IMG/VR virus record: IMGVR_UViG_3300035698_002394
Location: 1 to 23,513 of that record
DNA from: a virus
DNA: 23,513 nt
Strand: one strand, 5' to 3'
Program-made: the position numbers and the translations under genes
Shown: in pieces, positions 10,069 through 19,081 of the stretch
Layout: each line of letters opens with the position of its first letter
How positions within the stretch are numbered: position 1 is the stretch's first letter
Notes under the pieces: model-generated
Seen by the model: the letters and a program-made list of their open reading frames with translations, nothing else
Told to the model about the DNA's origin: nothing
The model's database searches: none

Positions 10069-11058
10069 ATGACATTCGACCACGAAATCCTGCAGACGAG
10101 GGACCTCATCGCATCTGCGGTGAAGTTCGAGTACCCGGCGCTCAAGTTTGTCTCCGCTGGCATCCCCGTCGAGGGTGTGAGTGGCGACAAGGTCGAGTGG
10201 GACATCGAGACTCCGAACAACGAGATCGACATCAACTTCGTGAACCCGGACTCCCAGTCTCAGCCGACCCAGCCGACGATCATCGGTCACCGTGTCGCGA
10301 ACGCGCTCACTACGTTCGTTCACCAGCACATCGGTGCGGGAAAACTCCTGAATCTCCGATTCCCGGGGACCAAGGAGAACAACGCCCGGCGTCTGATCGC
10401 ACGGGAGCAGGACCATCTCGTCAAGTCCTACGGTGCGCGGCGTGACGAGTGGATGATCGCTTCGATGCTGAAGGGGACGCTCACCTTCACATTGAACGGT
10501 GTCGCGCAGACGATCGACTACGGAATCGACGCGACCCACGAGCCCGACGTTTCCGGTACGGGCCCGTGGTCAACGGTCGGCACCGACATTCTCTCCCAGG
10601 TCAACGAGTGGAAGGGACTGATCGTCGCCGACTCCGGCCAGGACCCCACGACGATGTGGATGAACAGCGTCACGGCGATGTACCTCATCCAGAACACGGT
10701 TCTGAGCAACTACTTCTCCTCGACCGCCGAGGGCATCCTCATGGTCAAGGAGGGCGCTGTCCAGCGCTTGTTCGGGCTGAACATCATCATCTACGATGGT
10801 GCGTACATGAGTGGCACGTCCACGAAGTACATCCCCGACAACTACGTGATGATCCTCCCGGACTTCAACGCCGAGTGGATCAGCATGGTTCACGGCTCCA
10901 ACCTCATCCCCATGGGCGACGACATGGAAGAGGTCGAGGGCAAGGCGATGTACCAGGAGAGCGTCAAGGATCCGATCGGGATCAAGATGTATCTGAAGTA
11001 CACGCGCCTGCCGATTCTGAAGGTGCCCGACGCGGTGATCTACGCCCAGGTGGCCTAG
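10069..11058 (+). CDS. major capsid protein (lambda gpE-like), 329 aa
   Basis: It forms the icosahedral shell with the HK97 fold. The E-family pattern is readable: an N-terminal extended arm, VSAGIPVEGVSGDKVEWDIE (29-48), a helix RRLIAREQDHLVKSY (107-121) followed by RRDEWMIASMLKGTLTF (125-141), then WMNSVTAMYLI, LFGLNIIIYDGAY (234-246), IPDNYVMILP (255-264) and a C-terminal P-domain strand MYLKYTRLPILKVPDAVIYA. The length (329 aa) is close to lambda gpE (341 aa). The start ATG at 10069 follows AGGAAGG at 10055-10061. A clear intrinsic terminator follows the gene. Confidence 0.92.
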   Translation: MTFDHEILQTRDLIASAVKFEYPALKFVSAGIPVEGVSGDKVEWDIETPNNEIDINFVNPDSQSQPTQPTIIGHRVANALTTFVHQHIGAGKLLNLRFPGTKENNARRLIAREQDHLVKSYGARRDEWMIASMLKGTLTFTLNGVAQTIDYGIDATHEPDVSGTGPWSTVGTDILSQVNEWKGLIVADSGQDPTTMWMNSVTAMYLIQNTVLSNYFSSTAEGILMVKEGAVQRLFGLNIIIYDGAYMSGTSTKYIPDNYVMILPDFNAEWISMVHGSNLIPMGDDMEEVEGKAMYQESVKDPIGIKMYLKYTRLPILKVPDAVIYAQVA

Positions 11059-12824: not shown

Positions 12825-13991
12825 ATGGGTAACGAGATCCTCTCCGACATGGCGTTCCTTGTCGGGCGGAAGGAGACCGCGTGGGGCGTTTACAGCGCTT
12901 CCTCGGATCTCCCGCATCCGATGTACGACGGTGCCTACGGGGTGGCGCTCAACGACCCCGACCGCATCCAGCCTCACGTCGATGGAGACCTCGACGCAAC
13001 CTACGTCGTTCAGGACGTGCGGGACCTGGAGGGTTCGATGGAGGTCGGTGTCTTCCCCGATCTCCTCGGCTACCTGCTCGACTACGCCATGAGGCGTGGC
13101 ACGACGGGAAAGGGAGAGTCCTACTCCTGGGACTTCGTCGTTCCTGGTCTGAACGATCTGCGGCATCTCGGCTGCATGGTCGGGTCCATGTCGATAGCCT
13201 TCGCCGAGGGCCAGGACGTGAAACTTTCGATGAACCTTCGAGGGAAGTACGAGGTGCTCAACACTCCGATCCCGGCCACAGGCGACTACTCGTGGCCTCA
13301 GATCACCTCGATGTACTTCAGCAACTGCAAGTTCCTCTGCTCGCTCGACGGTGGGTCCACCGAGATCGTTCCGGTCGGCCTCGACAACGCGACCATCACG
13401 TTCGACAACCAGCTTCAGCCGGGGCCGCACGAAGAGAACCGCGTGGACGTGAACCAGGACGGCACGATCGGCTACCTGCTCTCGGGTCGCCCGGTGCTGT
13501 CGGGTTCGTTCACGGTCCTCTTCGACCGCGCGGACTGGCTGACCATGCAGCGGAGCAAGATCAAGGGTTCGCTCCGCATCATGATGGCGCACCGAGATGG
13601 TGCGTCGGCCGTCGTTGGTCCGGCTGGTGCTTCGGCGGGTGGGGCGGGTGTCCCCGTAGCCGTCCCGGTCACGGCCGACCCGTCCACGGACTTCGCGGCC
13701 GATGACGTGATCCGGTTCGACACGGACACGGCTGCGAACGCCAGTATCGGCAAGGTGACGGCTCGGGCGACCGGTCCGGACACGATCACCGTCGCCACGC
13801 TCGACAAGGACGTGGTGAGCGGTGACTACATCTTCAACGACGCGGCGGAGATCTTCGTGCCCTCGTTCCGGGTCACAAGCATCGGCCGCGAGACCACCAA
13901 GGGTTCTCTCGTCAAGGTCACGATGAACATGCGTGCCCTGGCCGAGGGTTCGGACAGCCTCATCGAGTACGAAGCGAAGAACGCGCAGTAG
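12825..13991 (+). CDS. major tail tube protein, 388 aa
   Basis: It is likely the hexamer-ring subunit of the tail tube. It precedes the tail chaperone and tape measure genes. It is beta-rich throughout, with DLEGSMEVGVFPDLLGYLLD (67-86) as the long-loop and helix element common in tube proteins and a C-terminal FVPSFRVTSIGRETTKGSLV strand pair. Residues about 276-340 form an inserted Ala/Gly/Asp/Thr-rich beta module (VPVAVPVTADPSTDFAADDV, then ATGPDTITVATLDKDVVSGD) that resembles segments in two later tail proteins. At 388 aa it is longer than simple tube proteins, consistent with an extra surface domain. SD GGAGG lies upstream of ATG 12825. No sheath gene is adjacent, favouring a siphovirus tail. 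Confidence 0.7.
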   Translation: MGNEILSDMAFLVGRKETAWGVYSASSDLPHPMYDGAYGVALNDPDRIQPHVDGDLDATYVVQDVRDLEGSMEVGVFPDLLGYLLDYAMRRGTTGKGESYSWDFVVPGLNDLRHLGCMVGSMSIAFAEGQDVKLSMNLRGKYEVLNTPIPATGDYSWPQITSMYFSNCKFLCSLDGGSTEIVPVGLDNATITFDNQLQPGPHEENRVDVNQDGTIGYLLSGRPVLSGSFTVLFDRADWLTMQRSKIKGSLRIMMAHRDGASAVVGPAGASAGGAGVPVAVPVTADPSTDFAADDVIRFDTDTAANASIGKVTARATGPDTITVATLDKDVVSGDYIFNDAAEIFVPSFRVTSIGRETTKGSLVKVTMNMRALAEGSDSLIEYEAKNAQ

Positions 13992-14089: not shown

Positions 14090-14734
14090 ATGGCAGACGA
14101 GACGATCGACATCAACGTGCCTGTGCCTGGCGAGGAGGCTGTGGAGGTCAAGCGCGACATGCCTGGCATGGATCAGGTTGCAGAGATGTGCTCCATGCTC
14201 GCGATCATGCCAGACCACAAGCCGGACTGGATCCGTGAGAGCGGTATCGACGAGGCAGAGATCCTCGTCTTCGGCGAGTGGGAGAATTCTCCCCAGAAGG
14301 TCACGATCCAGGGCCCGACTCGCGGCACCCTCAAGGCGTTTCTGGAAGCGTCGAGGGCCAAGAAGGACACCGACGAGATGGTGGTCCGGCTTGTCCGCGA
14401 AGTTGTTATCGAGATGCCAGAGTCGCTCAAGGCTCGGCGTCCCTTCGCTCTGAACGGTGCTGTCTGGATCGCGAAGGGAGCGCCATACCCGACGCCGGAG
14501 GATCTGGCGCAGGGAAAGCCGGAGGCGCTCAAGGACGCGGACGCGGACAAGGCGGTTCGGGAGTACATCCTCAACTACCTCCCGCATCGCATGGTTGTTC
14601 AGATCTGCTCGGCGGCGATGGCTCTCGGGACGCCGGACCTGAGTCAGGCGTTCTCGCTGGCGAAGAAGGCGGGACCGGACGGTGATGACCCTTTGTCGAG
14701 GGCGTCGGCTGGTACTTCGGAGGCGGTGGACTAG
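14090..14734 (+). CDS. tail assembly chaperone, unshifted product (lambda gpG-like), 214 aa
   Basis: It lies directly upstream of the tape measure gene, as lambda G does, and carries a -1 frameshift signal near its 3' end. Chaperones of this type coat the tape measure protein before tube polymerisation. The sequence is acidic at the N-terminus, with a central mixed region (GVPGEE-like start, then WIRESGIDEAEILVFGEWEN) and helical C-terminal part (KAVREYILNYLPHRMVVQIC). I do not recognise a named family by sequence. The call rests on position plus frameshift architecture. The start has AGGAG at 14078-14082. It ends at TAG 14732-14734. Confidence 0.75.
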   Translation: MADETIDINVPVPGEEAVEVKRDMPGMDQVAEMCSMLAIMPDHKPDWIRESGIDEAEILVFGEWENSPQKVTIQGPTRGTLKAFLEASRAKKDTDEMVVRLVREVVIEMPESLKARRPFALNGAVWIAKGAPYPTPEDLAQGKPEALKDADADKAVREYILNYLPHRMVVQICSAAMALGTPDLSQAFSLAKKAGPDGDDPLSRASAGTSEAVD

Positions 14735-14937
14735 AAGATCGCGAAGCCGGGCAACTCGCCTGGACGCAAGTCCGTGACAGGTGGCCGGGGATTGCGATGG
14801 AAATGCGCGAGATGAAACAGATCGTGTGGTTCCGAACCTTCCCCCGGCCCGGTCTGCCCTTGAAGCGTCAACCGGCACGATTCCTGGACCTTCTCGATTT
14901 CCTCACTTCGATGGGGGTACTCAGTAGCCATGCCTGA
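14090..14937 (+). CDS. tail assembly chaperone, frameshifted product (lambda gpGT-like), 282 aa
   Basis: The product joins codons 1-202 (14090-14695) to an 80-codon -1 frame starting at 14695 and ending at TGA 14935-14937. The extension has no ATG-initiated gene of its own, but reads as good protein: VEGVGWYFGGGGLEDREAGQ, LAWTQVRDRW, MEMREMKQIVWF, then FLDLLDFL near the end. It fills the otherwise blank 195 bp before the tape measure gene and overlaps that gene's start by 8 bases. In lambda, GT is made at a few percent of G and its T domain contacts the tail tube protein. The same job is inferred here. Confidence 0.8.
14689..14695 (+). promoter_or_regulatory. programmed -1 ribosomal frameshift slippery heptamer
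   Basis: C CCT TTG fits X XXY YYZ with CCT and TTG as zero-frame codons (690-692, 693-695). It comes right after the last stop in the -1 frame (TGA 14686-14688). Slippage re-pairs the tRNAs on CCC and TTT and continues with GTC at 14695-14697. I see no convincing close downstream pseudoknot by eye. Confidence 0.8.
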
Positions 14938-17900
14938 CCTGAAAATCACTATCCAGGGCGTCGATGAGTTCTCAAAGGTCGTTGACGCCATCCAGTCAAA
15001 GATGGATCACTTGTTCCAGGAGGCGAACAAGAACATGGCCGAACTCGCGGATCGCGCGAGCAAGGTCACTGTCAACATGGAGAAGATGGGACAGACCGTT
15101 GAGAAGGCTGAGAAGAAGTTGCATGCTCTGGCTGGCATGTTCCAGCAGTTCGCCACCGTGGCGTCGGGCGCGATCGAGCGGGTCGGTGGGATGTTCAGCC
15201 GAATGTTCGAGGACGCTGGGAGGATGGCTGAGAACGCGCTGAGCCGCCTCGGATCTCGCCTCAAGAGTATCGGTGGGGGTGGGCTGTCGCGGTCCTTCCT
15301 GTCCCCTGTGATCGACGCTATGCGGACCGGCATGCAGACCGCGATCGACGGCGTGAACGACATGGTCAAGGGCGCGATCACCGCGTACACGAACCTCGTC
15401 ACCGGGGCCATGAAAACCATTGGTGAACTCCTCAAGGGTGGTTCGACAGTCGGTGGGGCCGCGCTCGGTTTTGCTCTCACAGGAAACCCGATCGGCGCAC
15501 TCTTTGGTGCTGGCATTGGCTCCCTCCTCGGATCTCTCCCGAAGGTTATTGCGGATGTTGCTGCCGGAGTTGTCGAGGGGATGGCCTCAGTCCTTCGTGG
15601 CCTGAGCGACGTGTTCGCTGGTGCGTTCGGCGCTGCGGTGAACATCGCGAGTCAGATTCTCGCTGGGCTGGTGAGCGCTGTGTCGAGTGTCGTCGAGAAG
15701 ATCGGCAGCATCTTCTCCGGGATGGTGGACAAGGTCTTAGGACTCCTCGGAAACATGGCTGGGAAGATCGGCACTGTCTTCACAGGCATCGCGGGGTTCG
15801 CCACCTACGAGGCTCTCCGGATGGAACGTGGTTTCGCCACAGCCTTCGGTCTGATCCCGGACGCTGGTGAGAAGGCGTTCAAGATGCTGCGGGACCGGGT
15901 CACGGACATCTGGGAGACCACACCGTTTGTCAGTGGCTACCAGATGACACGCGGTCTCTTCCAGACGATCTCCTCCGGTGCTCGTGAGCCAGCCCGTGCG
16001 ATGGAGATCATGAAGGCGTCCATCGAGGCGGTCATCGGTGGTGGCGTGAAGGACATGGAGACCACGATCAAGGCCGTGACGAGAGCGACCCTGCTCTACA
16101 ACCACACAGCAAAAGAGACCGTGGACATCCTCTTTCAGACGCAGAACCTCGGTCAGATCACGTTCTCGGAACTTGCCAGAGGCATGGGCCTGGTCTCTGG
16201 TTTCGCGTCCGCCGCGAAGATCGAATTCAAGGATCTCATGACCGCAATCGCGGTGGGGTCACGTGGCCTCGATCCCGAGTCGCTGTTCACAGGTATCCGT
16301 CGTGGAATTCAGACGCTCTACGCTCCGGGACCGGACGCTGCTGCGGCGAGGAAGAGGGCTGGGATCGCCTTCAAGGAATTGACGGACGAGGAGCAGAAAC
16401 TCAGCGACACGAAACTGTTCAACATCCAGGTCATGAAGGAGGAGCTTCGGATCTTCACGCGACTCCCCGCGAGGACCCACACACAGGCGCTTCGGATGCG
16501 GGACCTCCGCGAGCAGATCGAGGGAGCATCAACCGCGTTCACGGACTGGGCCGCGACGACTGGCCGTCCGATCCCGATGATGGAGTCGCTTCGCAGGATC
16601 GCTGACCTGGACCCGAGCATCGAGACTCTGAGAAAGCTCATTCCTGAGATCAGGGCCCTGACGTTCATCTCCTCCGCGATCAAACTCCGTCCGTTCTGGA
16701 AGGAGATCAAGGAGGGCATCGAGGACTCTGCTGGCGCGGCGAAGGATGCTGCTGACATCCAGAGGACGGAGACACTGGCGCAACTGTCGATGACGTGGCA
16801 CGGGATCGTTGCGGTCATGAAGGACTTCGCCGAGACCCTGAAGGGCCCCGTGGCTGACGGTCTCACGATGATCCGAGAAGCGATCAAGGATCTCCAGGGG
16901 TCACACGCCTTTGCGCGGTTCAAGGACTGGGCGAAGGATATGGCTGTTGACATCTTCAAGCACCTCGGCAGCGCGTTCGACTACCTGCGCAACAACTGGG
17001 ACGACATCGAGAAGAAGATGACCGCTGGGTGGAGAGCCGTGGAGAAGGTGATCCTGGCCGCATGGGAGGGTGCGAAGGCGATCGTTAACGTTGTTAGCAA
17101 CATGGTCAAGGACGGCGTGCTTGGCGAATGGTCAGACGAGTGGGAGAGGGTCAAGGAGATTGTCGCTGAGACGTGGAGTATCATCGGGGAGATGTCTCAG
17201 GGGAACATGGGTCCTCTTGCCGACGCGATGAAGGGCCTTTGGGAGTGGTTCTCCGATTACGCAGAAGAGGCTTGGCTTCGCGTCCAGTCGTATGGCCTGA
17301 ACGCAGCGGCGACGATCGCCGAGGCTCTCGGAACCGGCATTCAGTACGCGCTCTCCGAAGGCATCACTGGAGCGATTCGCCTGGTCGTTGCGGAGATGCC
17401 TGGTGTCGGGGATATGTTCGGTCTCCCTGACAATCCCCCTGGCGTTGACGACGCTATCAAGGCGCTCAAGGCGGTCAGAGAGGTCGAGAGCACCAACCTG
17501 AAGGGCTTGCCAACGGGCTTCGGTGCTGAAGACCTGACGGCCGGGAAACAACCACGAGGGCCGATCGGAACTCGGATGGCGCTTCAGGATGCTGGTTACA
17601 GCAACAAGGACATCGACAAGCTTCTCAGCGCGTGGGAGAGGATGCTCGAATCGGCGGGAGGAATTACACCGACCGGAGACCCAGAAAGGCTCGTCGCAAA
17701 CATCAAGGCCGACGCGCAAGCGACCCTCGAACAGAACAATATCCTCGGGGAGATTGCCGGAAACATGCGCAGGGCCGCAGACGCGCTCTCGTCCGAGGCG
17801 GATCTCATGAAGATGTCGCGAGAGTTCTACCTCAAGGACAAGGCTGAGAAGGCGGCCGTTGCCAAGTCAGAACGCGAGCAGTTGGAGGCTGGCTACGGTG

Positions 17901-19081
17901 ATGACTCCATGTTCAAGGTCGGGAAGGTTTCCAAGGGTCCAGTGATAAGCCGGTGGGAGAACGAGCAAGCGGTGGCGCGTGGAGCAAAGGGTGTCTGGAT
18001 TGAAGCGCAACGCCGTCGAGAGGAAGGATCGAGAATAGCGGCTGAGTTCGGAGAGAGCACAGCGCATTATCCGACAGCAAAGGAGGAAGCGGTTGGAGAG
18101 GCGAAGGCAAAACTCGACAGGGCACTTGAGTCCCTCGCGAACAAGGAGCAGATGATCGCGGACCAGATTGCGAAACTCAACGAGATTGCCAAGACGGCAC
18201 AGAAGACGACCTCGAACCTGACCGATGAGGATCTTGAGAACATCGCTCGCGTTGTCACGCTCCGCCTGGAGTCATCGGTTGAGATGGCAAAGATCGGGCT
18301 CAAGAGGGCGCTGAAAACTCCGGCGAAGAAGGCTGGTGGCAAAGAGGTTGAAGCCGAGACTGACAAGGGGGTCGAGAAGGAGAAGGCCAAGGAGAAGGCT
18401 GGTGAAGCCGGTGAGGAAGTCGCGGACGAGTTCACGCAGAAGGCTCGTGATAAGGCACTGGAGAACATTCGCAAGTCCGGATACTTCAGCGACGAGGACT
18501 TCCTCACGAAGGCGCAACGCAAGGGTTCTTCCTCCAGCCAACGTCGTAGTGGGAGTTCCGGTGGTGGCCGTGCCAGCGATGAGGTTGAGGATACAGGGCA
18601 CCGCATGCCGAGGACGTTCCAGGAGGCCAGTAGCCAGCGCGGAGGTCTCGCCTGGACATCTATGGTTCAGAAGATCAGGGACCGCATCAATTCCCTTGAG
18701 GGAATAAGGCGTGAGATGTTCACGATGTTGCGCGAAGAGGTTGAGGCTGCTGGCGGGTCCATATCCCCAAAGGTTGCAAGTTCTATGGTGGCAGCGACAA
18801 AGGGCGCTGGGAGCCTTGAGGAGGCCAAGAAGAACCTTGCGGACAACCTTGAGAACTTCGCGAACACGCAGGTTTTCACAAGCAAGAGCGACGAGGCGAG
18901 AACAGGTAATCTGAGAGATGTGATTGAGAATCTTCGCGTGACCATCGTTGAGACAGGAGAGAAGATCGCCGTACTTCAGAACGACATCGTCAACAAGGTC
19001 AACGCATCGACCGAGGCTCAGAAGAAACTCGGCGCAGATACGGACGAATCAAAGAAACGGCTTCAGGCGCAGGAGAACTAG
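14930..19081 (+). CDS. tape measure protein, 1383 aa
   Basis: It sets tail length and is ejected at infection. It is the longest gene, follows the chaperone pair and precedes tail-tip genes. Residues 15-120 are helical, coiled-coil-like. Residues about 170-295 are a long hydrophobic Gly/Ala-rich stretch (GGAALGFALT, ALFGAGIGSLLGSLP, and so on) suited to membrane insertion. Residues about 300-480 resemble the TP901-type tape measure core (TTPFVSGYQMTRGLFQTISS, then LFQTQNLGQITFSELARGMG, then AVGSRGLDPESLFTGIRRGI). The C-terminal third is Lys/Glu/Ala-rich helix with a Ser/Gly-rich break near residue 1200. At the usual about 0.15 nm per residue this predicts a tail near 200 nm. The start ATG overlaps the frameshift product stop. 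SD is weak (GGGGGT). Confidence 0.9.
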   Translation: MPDLKITIQGVDEFSKVVDAIQSKMDHLFQEANKNMAELADRASKVTVNMEKMGQTVEKAEKKLHALAGMFQQFATVASGAIERVGGMFSRMFEDAGRMAENALSRLGSRLKSIGGGGLSRSFLSPVIDAMRTGMQTAIDGVNDMVKGAITAYTNLVTGAMKTIGELLKGGSTVGGAALGFALTGNPIGALFGAGIGSLLGSLPKVIADVAAGVVEGMASVLRGLSDVFAGAFGAAVNIASQILAGLVSAVSSVVEKIGSIFSGMVDKVLGLLGNMAGKIGTVFTGIAGFATYEALRMERGFATAFGLIPDAGEKAFKMLRDRVTDIWETTPFVSGYQMTRGLFQTISSGAREPARAMEIMKASIEAVIGGGVKDMETTIKAVTRATLLYNHTAKETVDILFQTQNLGQITFSELARGMGLVSGFASAAKIEFKDLMTAIAVGSRGLDPESLFTGIRRGIQTLYAPGPDAAAARKRAGIAFKELTDEEQKLSDTKLFNIQVMKEELRIFTRLPARTHTQALRMRDLREQIEGASTAFTDWAATTGRPIPMMESLRRIADLDPSIETLRKLIPEIRALTFISSAIKLRPFWKEIKEGIEDSAGAAKDAADIQRTETLAQLSMTWHGIVAVMKDFAETLKGPVADGLTMIREAIKDLQGSHAFARFKDWAKDMAVDIFKHLGSAFDYLRNNWDDIEKKMTAGWRAVEKVILAAWEGAKAIVNVVSNMVKDGVLGEWSDEWERVKEIVAETWSIIGEMSQGNMGPLADAMKGLWEWFSDYAEEAWLRVQSYGLNAAATIAEALGTGIQYALSEGITGAIRLVVAEMPGVGDMFGLPDNPPGVDDAIKALKAVREVESTNLKGLPTGFGAEDLTAGKQPRGPIGTRMALQDAGYSNKDIDKLLSAWERMLESAGGITPTGDPERLVANIKADAQATLEQNNILGEIAGNMRRAADALSSEADLMKMSREFYLKDKAEKAAVAKSEREQLEAGYGDDSMFKVGKVSKGPVISRWENEQAVARGAKGVWIEAQRRREEGSRIAAEFGESTAHYPTAKEEAVGEAKAKLDRALESLANKEQMIADQIAKLNEIAKTAQKTTSNLTDEDLENIARVVTLRLESSVEMAKIGLKRALKTPAKKAGGKEVEAETDKGVEKEKAKEKAGEAGEEVADEFTQKARDKALENIRKSGYFSDEDFLTKAQRKGSSSSQRRSGSSGGGRASDEVEDTGHRMPRTFQEASSQRGGLAWTSMVQKIRDRINSLEGIRREMFTMLREEVEAAGGSISPKVASSMVAATKGAGSLEEAKKNLADNLENFANTQVFTSKSDEARTGNLRDVIENLRVTIVETGEKIAVLQNDIVNKVNASTEAQKKLGADTDESKKRLQAQEN

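Follow-up and report, generated by a model that had tools for sequence, protein, structure and literature searches.

Between the tail tube and tape measure genes of an unclassified phage lies an open reading frame (ORF) of 214 codons that is followed by an apparent gap of 195 bp (14735–14929). Is this gap a spacer, or does it encode the end of a longer protein that is made by ribosomal frameshifting? We examined the whole virus record of 23,513 nucleotides (the window), together with relatives of its genes. Judging from the sequence, we consider it very probable that the ORF is a tail assembly chaperone gene of the lambda G/GT type, in which a programmed -1 frameshift would yield a minority G-T fusion besides the G protein.

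The putative frameshift site and its gene neighborhood

The + strand of the window carries a structural operon with genes for terminase, portal, capsid, neck proteins, and tail tube, and then the 214-codon ORF (14090–14734, + strand), the gap, and the tape measure gene. The ORF's product, which we will call G, would be the zero-frame form of the putative chaperone. Its direct neighbors on the same strand are clear: upstream is a tail tube protein of 388 amino acids (12825–13991; PF18906 or Phage_tube_2, E = 9.9e-24, 84.8 bits), and downstream is a tape measure protein of 1,383 amino acids (14930–19081; PF10145, E = 3.5e-12, and twelve PHROG tape measure families). The original prediction described the head genes as Mu-like, which is correct for the portal (PF06074, E = 4.7e-22) and not for the capsid (PF03864 or Phage_cap_E) or the terminase (PF05876 or GpA_ATPase), as neither of these is a Mu family. 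A neck gene has a match to Phage_tail_S that is below the cutoff. By family assignment, the head gene set is a mosaic, and only the portal is clearly of the Mu type.

The slippery heptamer, C CCT TTG, lies at 14689–14695 (+ strand) and is in exact X XXY YYZ phase with the zero frame of 14090–14734, as originally predicted. It is the sole heptamer in the usable zone. The last stop codons in the -1 frame are a pair of TGA codons (14683–14688, + strand; that is, 14683–14685 and 14686–14688), and the second of these abuts the heptamer, so the codon that was thought to separate them does not exist. From CCC at 14689, the -1 frame is open for 82 codons, until TGA at 14935–14937, which is close to the predicted 80; as expected, it overlaps the start of the tape measure gene (ATG at 14930), by 8 nt. 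If ribosomes slipped after reading TTG, then 202 residues of G would be joined to 80 residues from the -1 frame (14695–14937, + strand, including the stop codon; the T-like domain), to give a fusion protein of 282 amino acids with the predicted junction peptide ...DGDDPLVEGVGWYF... The extension continues for 67 codons past the stop codon of G (TAG at 14732). Downstream of the heptamer, we looked for a stimulatory hairpin and found no unusually stable RNA structure (z of -0.8 to 0.2).

The extension had been described as lacking a start codon of its own. In fact, there is an ATG in its frame at 14797, which opens an ORF of 46 codons (14797–14937, + strand). This suggests another reading, in which the ATG begins a separate small gene for a protein of 46 amino acids that is expressed without any frameshift, perhaps by translational coupling. 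The codon score is slightly better after this ATG than before it (0.074 versus -0.179 bits per codon), as would be expected of such a gene. However, the ribosome binding site is poor (AGGTGG is poorly spaced, as it ends 12 nt upstream), the heptamer and the open frame at 14689–14796 would be left unexplained, and the comparator phages that we describe below use a fusion. We consider a separate gene to be very unlikely.

How often the pattern arises by chance

It could also be a coincidence that an open -1 frame follows a heptamer here: G would be made alone, 14735–14929 would be a non-coding spacer, and the function of T would be provided elsewhere or would be absent. An open -1 frame is by itself compatible with this, as its probability under a Markov model is about 0.19, and in two other genes of the window the -1 frame is also open beyond the stop codon (for 85 codons in the terminase gene and for 62 codons in the capsid gene). 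Heptamers are less common: 17 of the 6,920 codon sites in the window's genes have an in-phase XXXYYYZ heptamer, so that 0.034 would be expected in a zone of 14 codons.

As an open -1 frame says little by itself, we calibrated the joint pattern on the called genes of the loci that were fetched for comparison. The joint pattern was defined as a heptamer at most 60 nt before the stop codon, a -1 frame that is open for at least 60 codons past the stop codon, and an open stretch that is not itself a called gene. In GC-rich loci, it occurs in just 8 of 1,087 called genes, including G from the window. At least three of the other seven (from loci L034, L065, and L208) are tail-chaperone genes, and each of these three is immediately 5' of a long ORF. 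The gene from L208 matches a PHROG for tail assembly chaperones, and the neighbor of the gene from L065 matches tape measure PHROGs. In L034, both the gene and its neighbor match only PHROGs of unknown function; we consider this gene to be a tail chaperone because of its position and because it is homologous to a gene in L014 that is followed by an ORF with matches to known tape measures. The remaining four GC-rich positives are spurious-looking or unexplained.

Among loci with low GC content, the positives include tail chaperones with G GGA AAG (L015 and L018), and also a capsid gene (L063:9343–10362) and a tail tube gene (L084:12431–12895; phrog_158) with CCCAAAA. In both of the latter, the heptamer is 13 nt before the stop codon and the -1 frame is open for another 82–88 codons, which suggests that frameshifting may produce C-terminally extended forms of these structural proteins.

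The window's own capsid gene (10069–11058) shows why the pattern should be read with caution in GC-rich DNA. It has an in-phase GGGCCCG (at 10560) within a long open -1 zone, the one that runs 62 codons past the stop codon, and this is probably due to chance.

Of the 60 distinct tape-measure loci in our comparison set, 37 are directly preceded by an ORF that fits looser criteria, namely a heptamer no more than 80 nt from the stop codon and a -1 frame that is open for 50 codons or more. However, these are not 37 independent cases because many of them are near-identical prophages.

We also asked if the extension looks like coding sequence. In the -1 frame past the stop codon of G, the GC content by codon position (0.65/0.46/0.69) is near the values of the window's genes. 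The full codon score, at about 0.0 bits per codon, is above that of every wrong-frame window and is higher than expected from random open frames of similar composition (P = 0.036), yet it falls in the lowest 3% of windows from true genes. The synonymous codon bias is no better than that of a random open frame (P = 0.43) and is within the bottom 1% of gene windows. Taken alone, this codon usage would suggest a non-coding extension, but our calibration showed that annotated extensions score low as well: in the phages Orchid and TIN2 (see below), the synonymous bias of the extension is also in the lowest 3–4%. The extensions in L034, L065, and L208 are more gene-like in their codon usage. Overall, the coding signal is weakly favorable at best.

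Together with the frequency of open -1 frames, the random level of synonymous bias is what would be expected from a coincidence, and neither a homologue nor an RNA structure backs the frameshift. Against this, the joint pattern is rare and at least four of the eight genes that have it are tail chaperones (counting the window's); it sits at the canonical place; and the full codon score of the extension exceeds all wrong-frame windows and most random open frames. Overall, a coincidence seems improbable.

Relatives of the window and recurrence of the arrangement

Searches of Pfam, PHROGs, NCBIfam, and phages did not identify a homologue of G. Scans of viral contigs with single proteins (G, the tape measure, the terminase, and the portal) found no relative, and tblastn against phages with G, the tail tube, or the fusion gave no match. 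Similarly, no homologue of the extension was found in the searches of viral contigs and phages. Alignments of the capsid, portal, and terminase identified relatives at only about 22–32% identity, none of which has a recognizable G, and the best relative by terminase (G015) has a different tail module. We also tried a scan for the motif GWYFGGG and rejected it, as its matches were for the most part out of frame and due to chance, and none was a tail chaperone. A structural model of G, predicted without relatives, was of too low quality to be useful (pLDDT of 39). A match to a known family is not required of a tail chaperone, because the G proteins of the phages TIN2 and phiT1 do not match any Pfam family either.

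Searches with the tail tube protein across about 1,000 genomes found one clear relative (34% identity), on a contig of 5 kb that has no tape measure gene (L253:1–5053; contig C119 of genome G473). There, the tail tube gene is followed by an ORF of 140 amino acids. The genome belongs to the phylum of a Phycisphaerales metagenome-assembled genome, and the locus may be a tail element that is domesticated or only partial.

Four phages with Portal_Mu portals, which were retrieved as portal relatives of the window, share the arrangement: Tsukamurella phage TIN2, Gordonia phage Orchid, Rossellomorea phage phiT1, and Bacillus phage Jayan. Their extensions continue for 74–87 codons past the stop codon (versus 67 in the window). 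In TIN2 (A AAA AAG; Orf16/Orf17) and Orchid (A AAA AAT; gp22/gp23), the two frames are annotated as joined. As in the window, the portal of these two phages belongs to Pfam's Portal_Mu, the shift is in the -1 direction, the tape measure comes next, and the extension has low synonymous codon bias. G has 194–196 amino acids, and the extension runs 85–87 codons past the stop codon. Unlike the window, they have A-rich heptamers, and we found no sequence homology between them and the window. In GenBank, then, frameshifted tail chaperones are already found in phages with Portal_Mu portals, so the combination of lambda-style logic with a Mu-type portal is on record, and the original prediction overrated its novelty.

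In phiT1 (L010:12564–13114) and Jayan (L013:11198–11787), A AAA AAG is present and the -1 frame is open for 74–80 codons past the stop codon of G. The GenBank records for these phages show two separate, unjoined genes, and these are likely to be missed frameshifts. In Streptomyces phage VWB, the -1 frame of gp45 (L002:12410–13158) is open for 132 codons past the stop codon, within an unannotated gap before gp47, but there is no in-phase XXXYYYZ heptamer. It is possible that this is a missed frameshift with another slippery motif.

The original prediction pointed out that the heptamer of the window differs in type from that of lambda. We searched the literature for CCCTTTG at tail chaperones and found nothing. 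Nevertheless, three divergent tail chaperones have retained C CCT TTC at the -1 switch (L014:9983–9989, L016:13056–13062, and L034:14709–14715); these are homologous to each other (31–38% identity in G and 31–47% in the extension). All three are from GC-rich, actinophage-like contigs in IMG/VR that are capsid relatives of the window phage; L014 is its best capsid relative. They share C CCT TT at the switch with the window and differ in the last base of the heptamer (C instead of G). G is 192–198 amino acids as called in L014 and L034, and the extensions in these two loci are longer than the window's (133–135 codons past the stop codon) and carry CxxC pairs. BLAST of the window's G or extension against these three found no significant match. 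As they are not recognizably homologous to the window's G, they provide a precedent for the class of heptamer and not a test of the site in the window. More broadly, a survey of SEA-PHAGES data with PRFect found such heptamers with all four bases at X, at Y, and at Z (PMC10885494). This class of heptamer is thus not odd at the tail-chaperone switch.

Another potential explanation for the two frames is an indel from assembly or sequencing that split one continuous gene, in which case G and the extension would be a single ORF without recoding. The window is a virus contig that lacks a close relative for checking, and the switch is inside a run of CCCTTT, both of which would fit this explanation. 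But it would be surprising for an accidental indel to fall precisely on an in-phase heptamer at the canonical place for frameshifting, and the comparators keep two frames. Of the alternatives, we give this one the least credence.

We prefer a programmed frameshift because of where the heptamer lies and its phase, because the pattern is rare among the genes that we surveyed, and because related phages have it at the same place; the lambda-like logic that was originally proposed is thus the best explanation.

Proposed mechanism and comparison with lambda and Mu

We infer that slippage occurs at this site at some rate, and that G and G-T act as chaperones, as follows. Most ribosomes would translate 14090–14734 through to the TAG and make a gpG-like chaperone of 214 amino acids. 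In a minority of ribosomes, with tRNAs on CCU in the P site and UUG in the A site, both tRNAs would slip back by one base on C CCU UUG, so that tRNA-Pro would now pair with CCC instead of CCU, and tRNA-Leu with UUU instead of UUG. These ribosomes would continue in the -1 frame and make the 282-residue fusion, whose last 80 residues would form the T domain. G and G-T would both bind to the tape measure protein, and it would be the T domain that brings in subunits of the tail tube.

Re-pairing from UUG to UUU is imperfect for a tRNA with a CAA anticodon, unless a tRNA-Leu with U34 decodes UUG. We can imagine that an orphan lineage of chaperones independently arrived at a structure-free -1 shift on C CCT TTG, and that UUG to UUU is an under-studied slip in phages, but this is speculative and we consider it rather unlikely.

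If the frameshift is real, it fills a gap in the annotation of an unclassified phage with a hidden C-terminal domain of 80 residues, and C CCT TTN joins the heptamers that are seen at the conserved tail-chaperone switch. Also, a simple rule (an in-phase heptamer near the stop codon, an open -1 frame, and an adjoining tape measure gene) finds chaperones that have no similarity to known ones. Our understanding of frameshifting or of tail assembly is unchanged; this trick is common to many long-tailed phages.

The gpG and gpG-T proteins of phage lambda both bind to the tape measure protein, and the T part serves to recruit subunits of the tail tube. The G-T frameshift has been conserved widely even though the sequences share little similarity, and in phage Mu the shift is -2 (PMC5009743). 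The window resembles lambda in its gene order (tail tube, G, -1 extension, tape measure), in having a heptamer for simultaneous slippage near the 3' end of G, and in that the fusion would be a C-terminal extension of G. It differs from lambda in the heptamer (C CCT TTG versus G GGA AAG) and in the sizes of the two parts (G is longer and T is shorter), and there is no detectable sequence homology. With Mu, the window shares a recoded tail assembly gene, if our interpretation is correct, and the type of portal. In contrast to the -2 shift of Mu, only a -1 shift reaches the open frame in the window.
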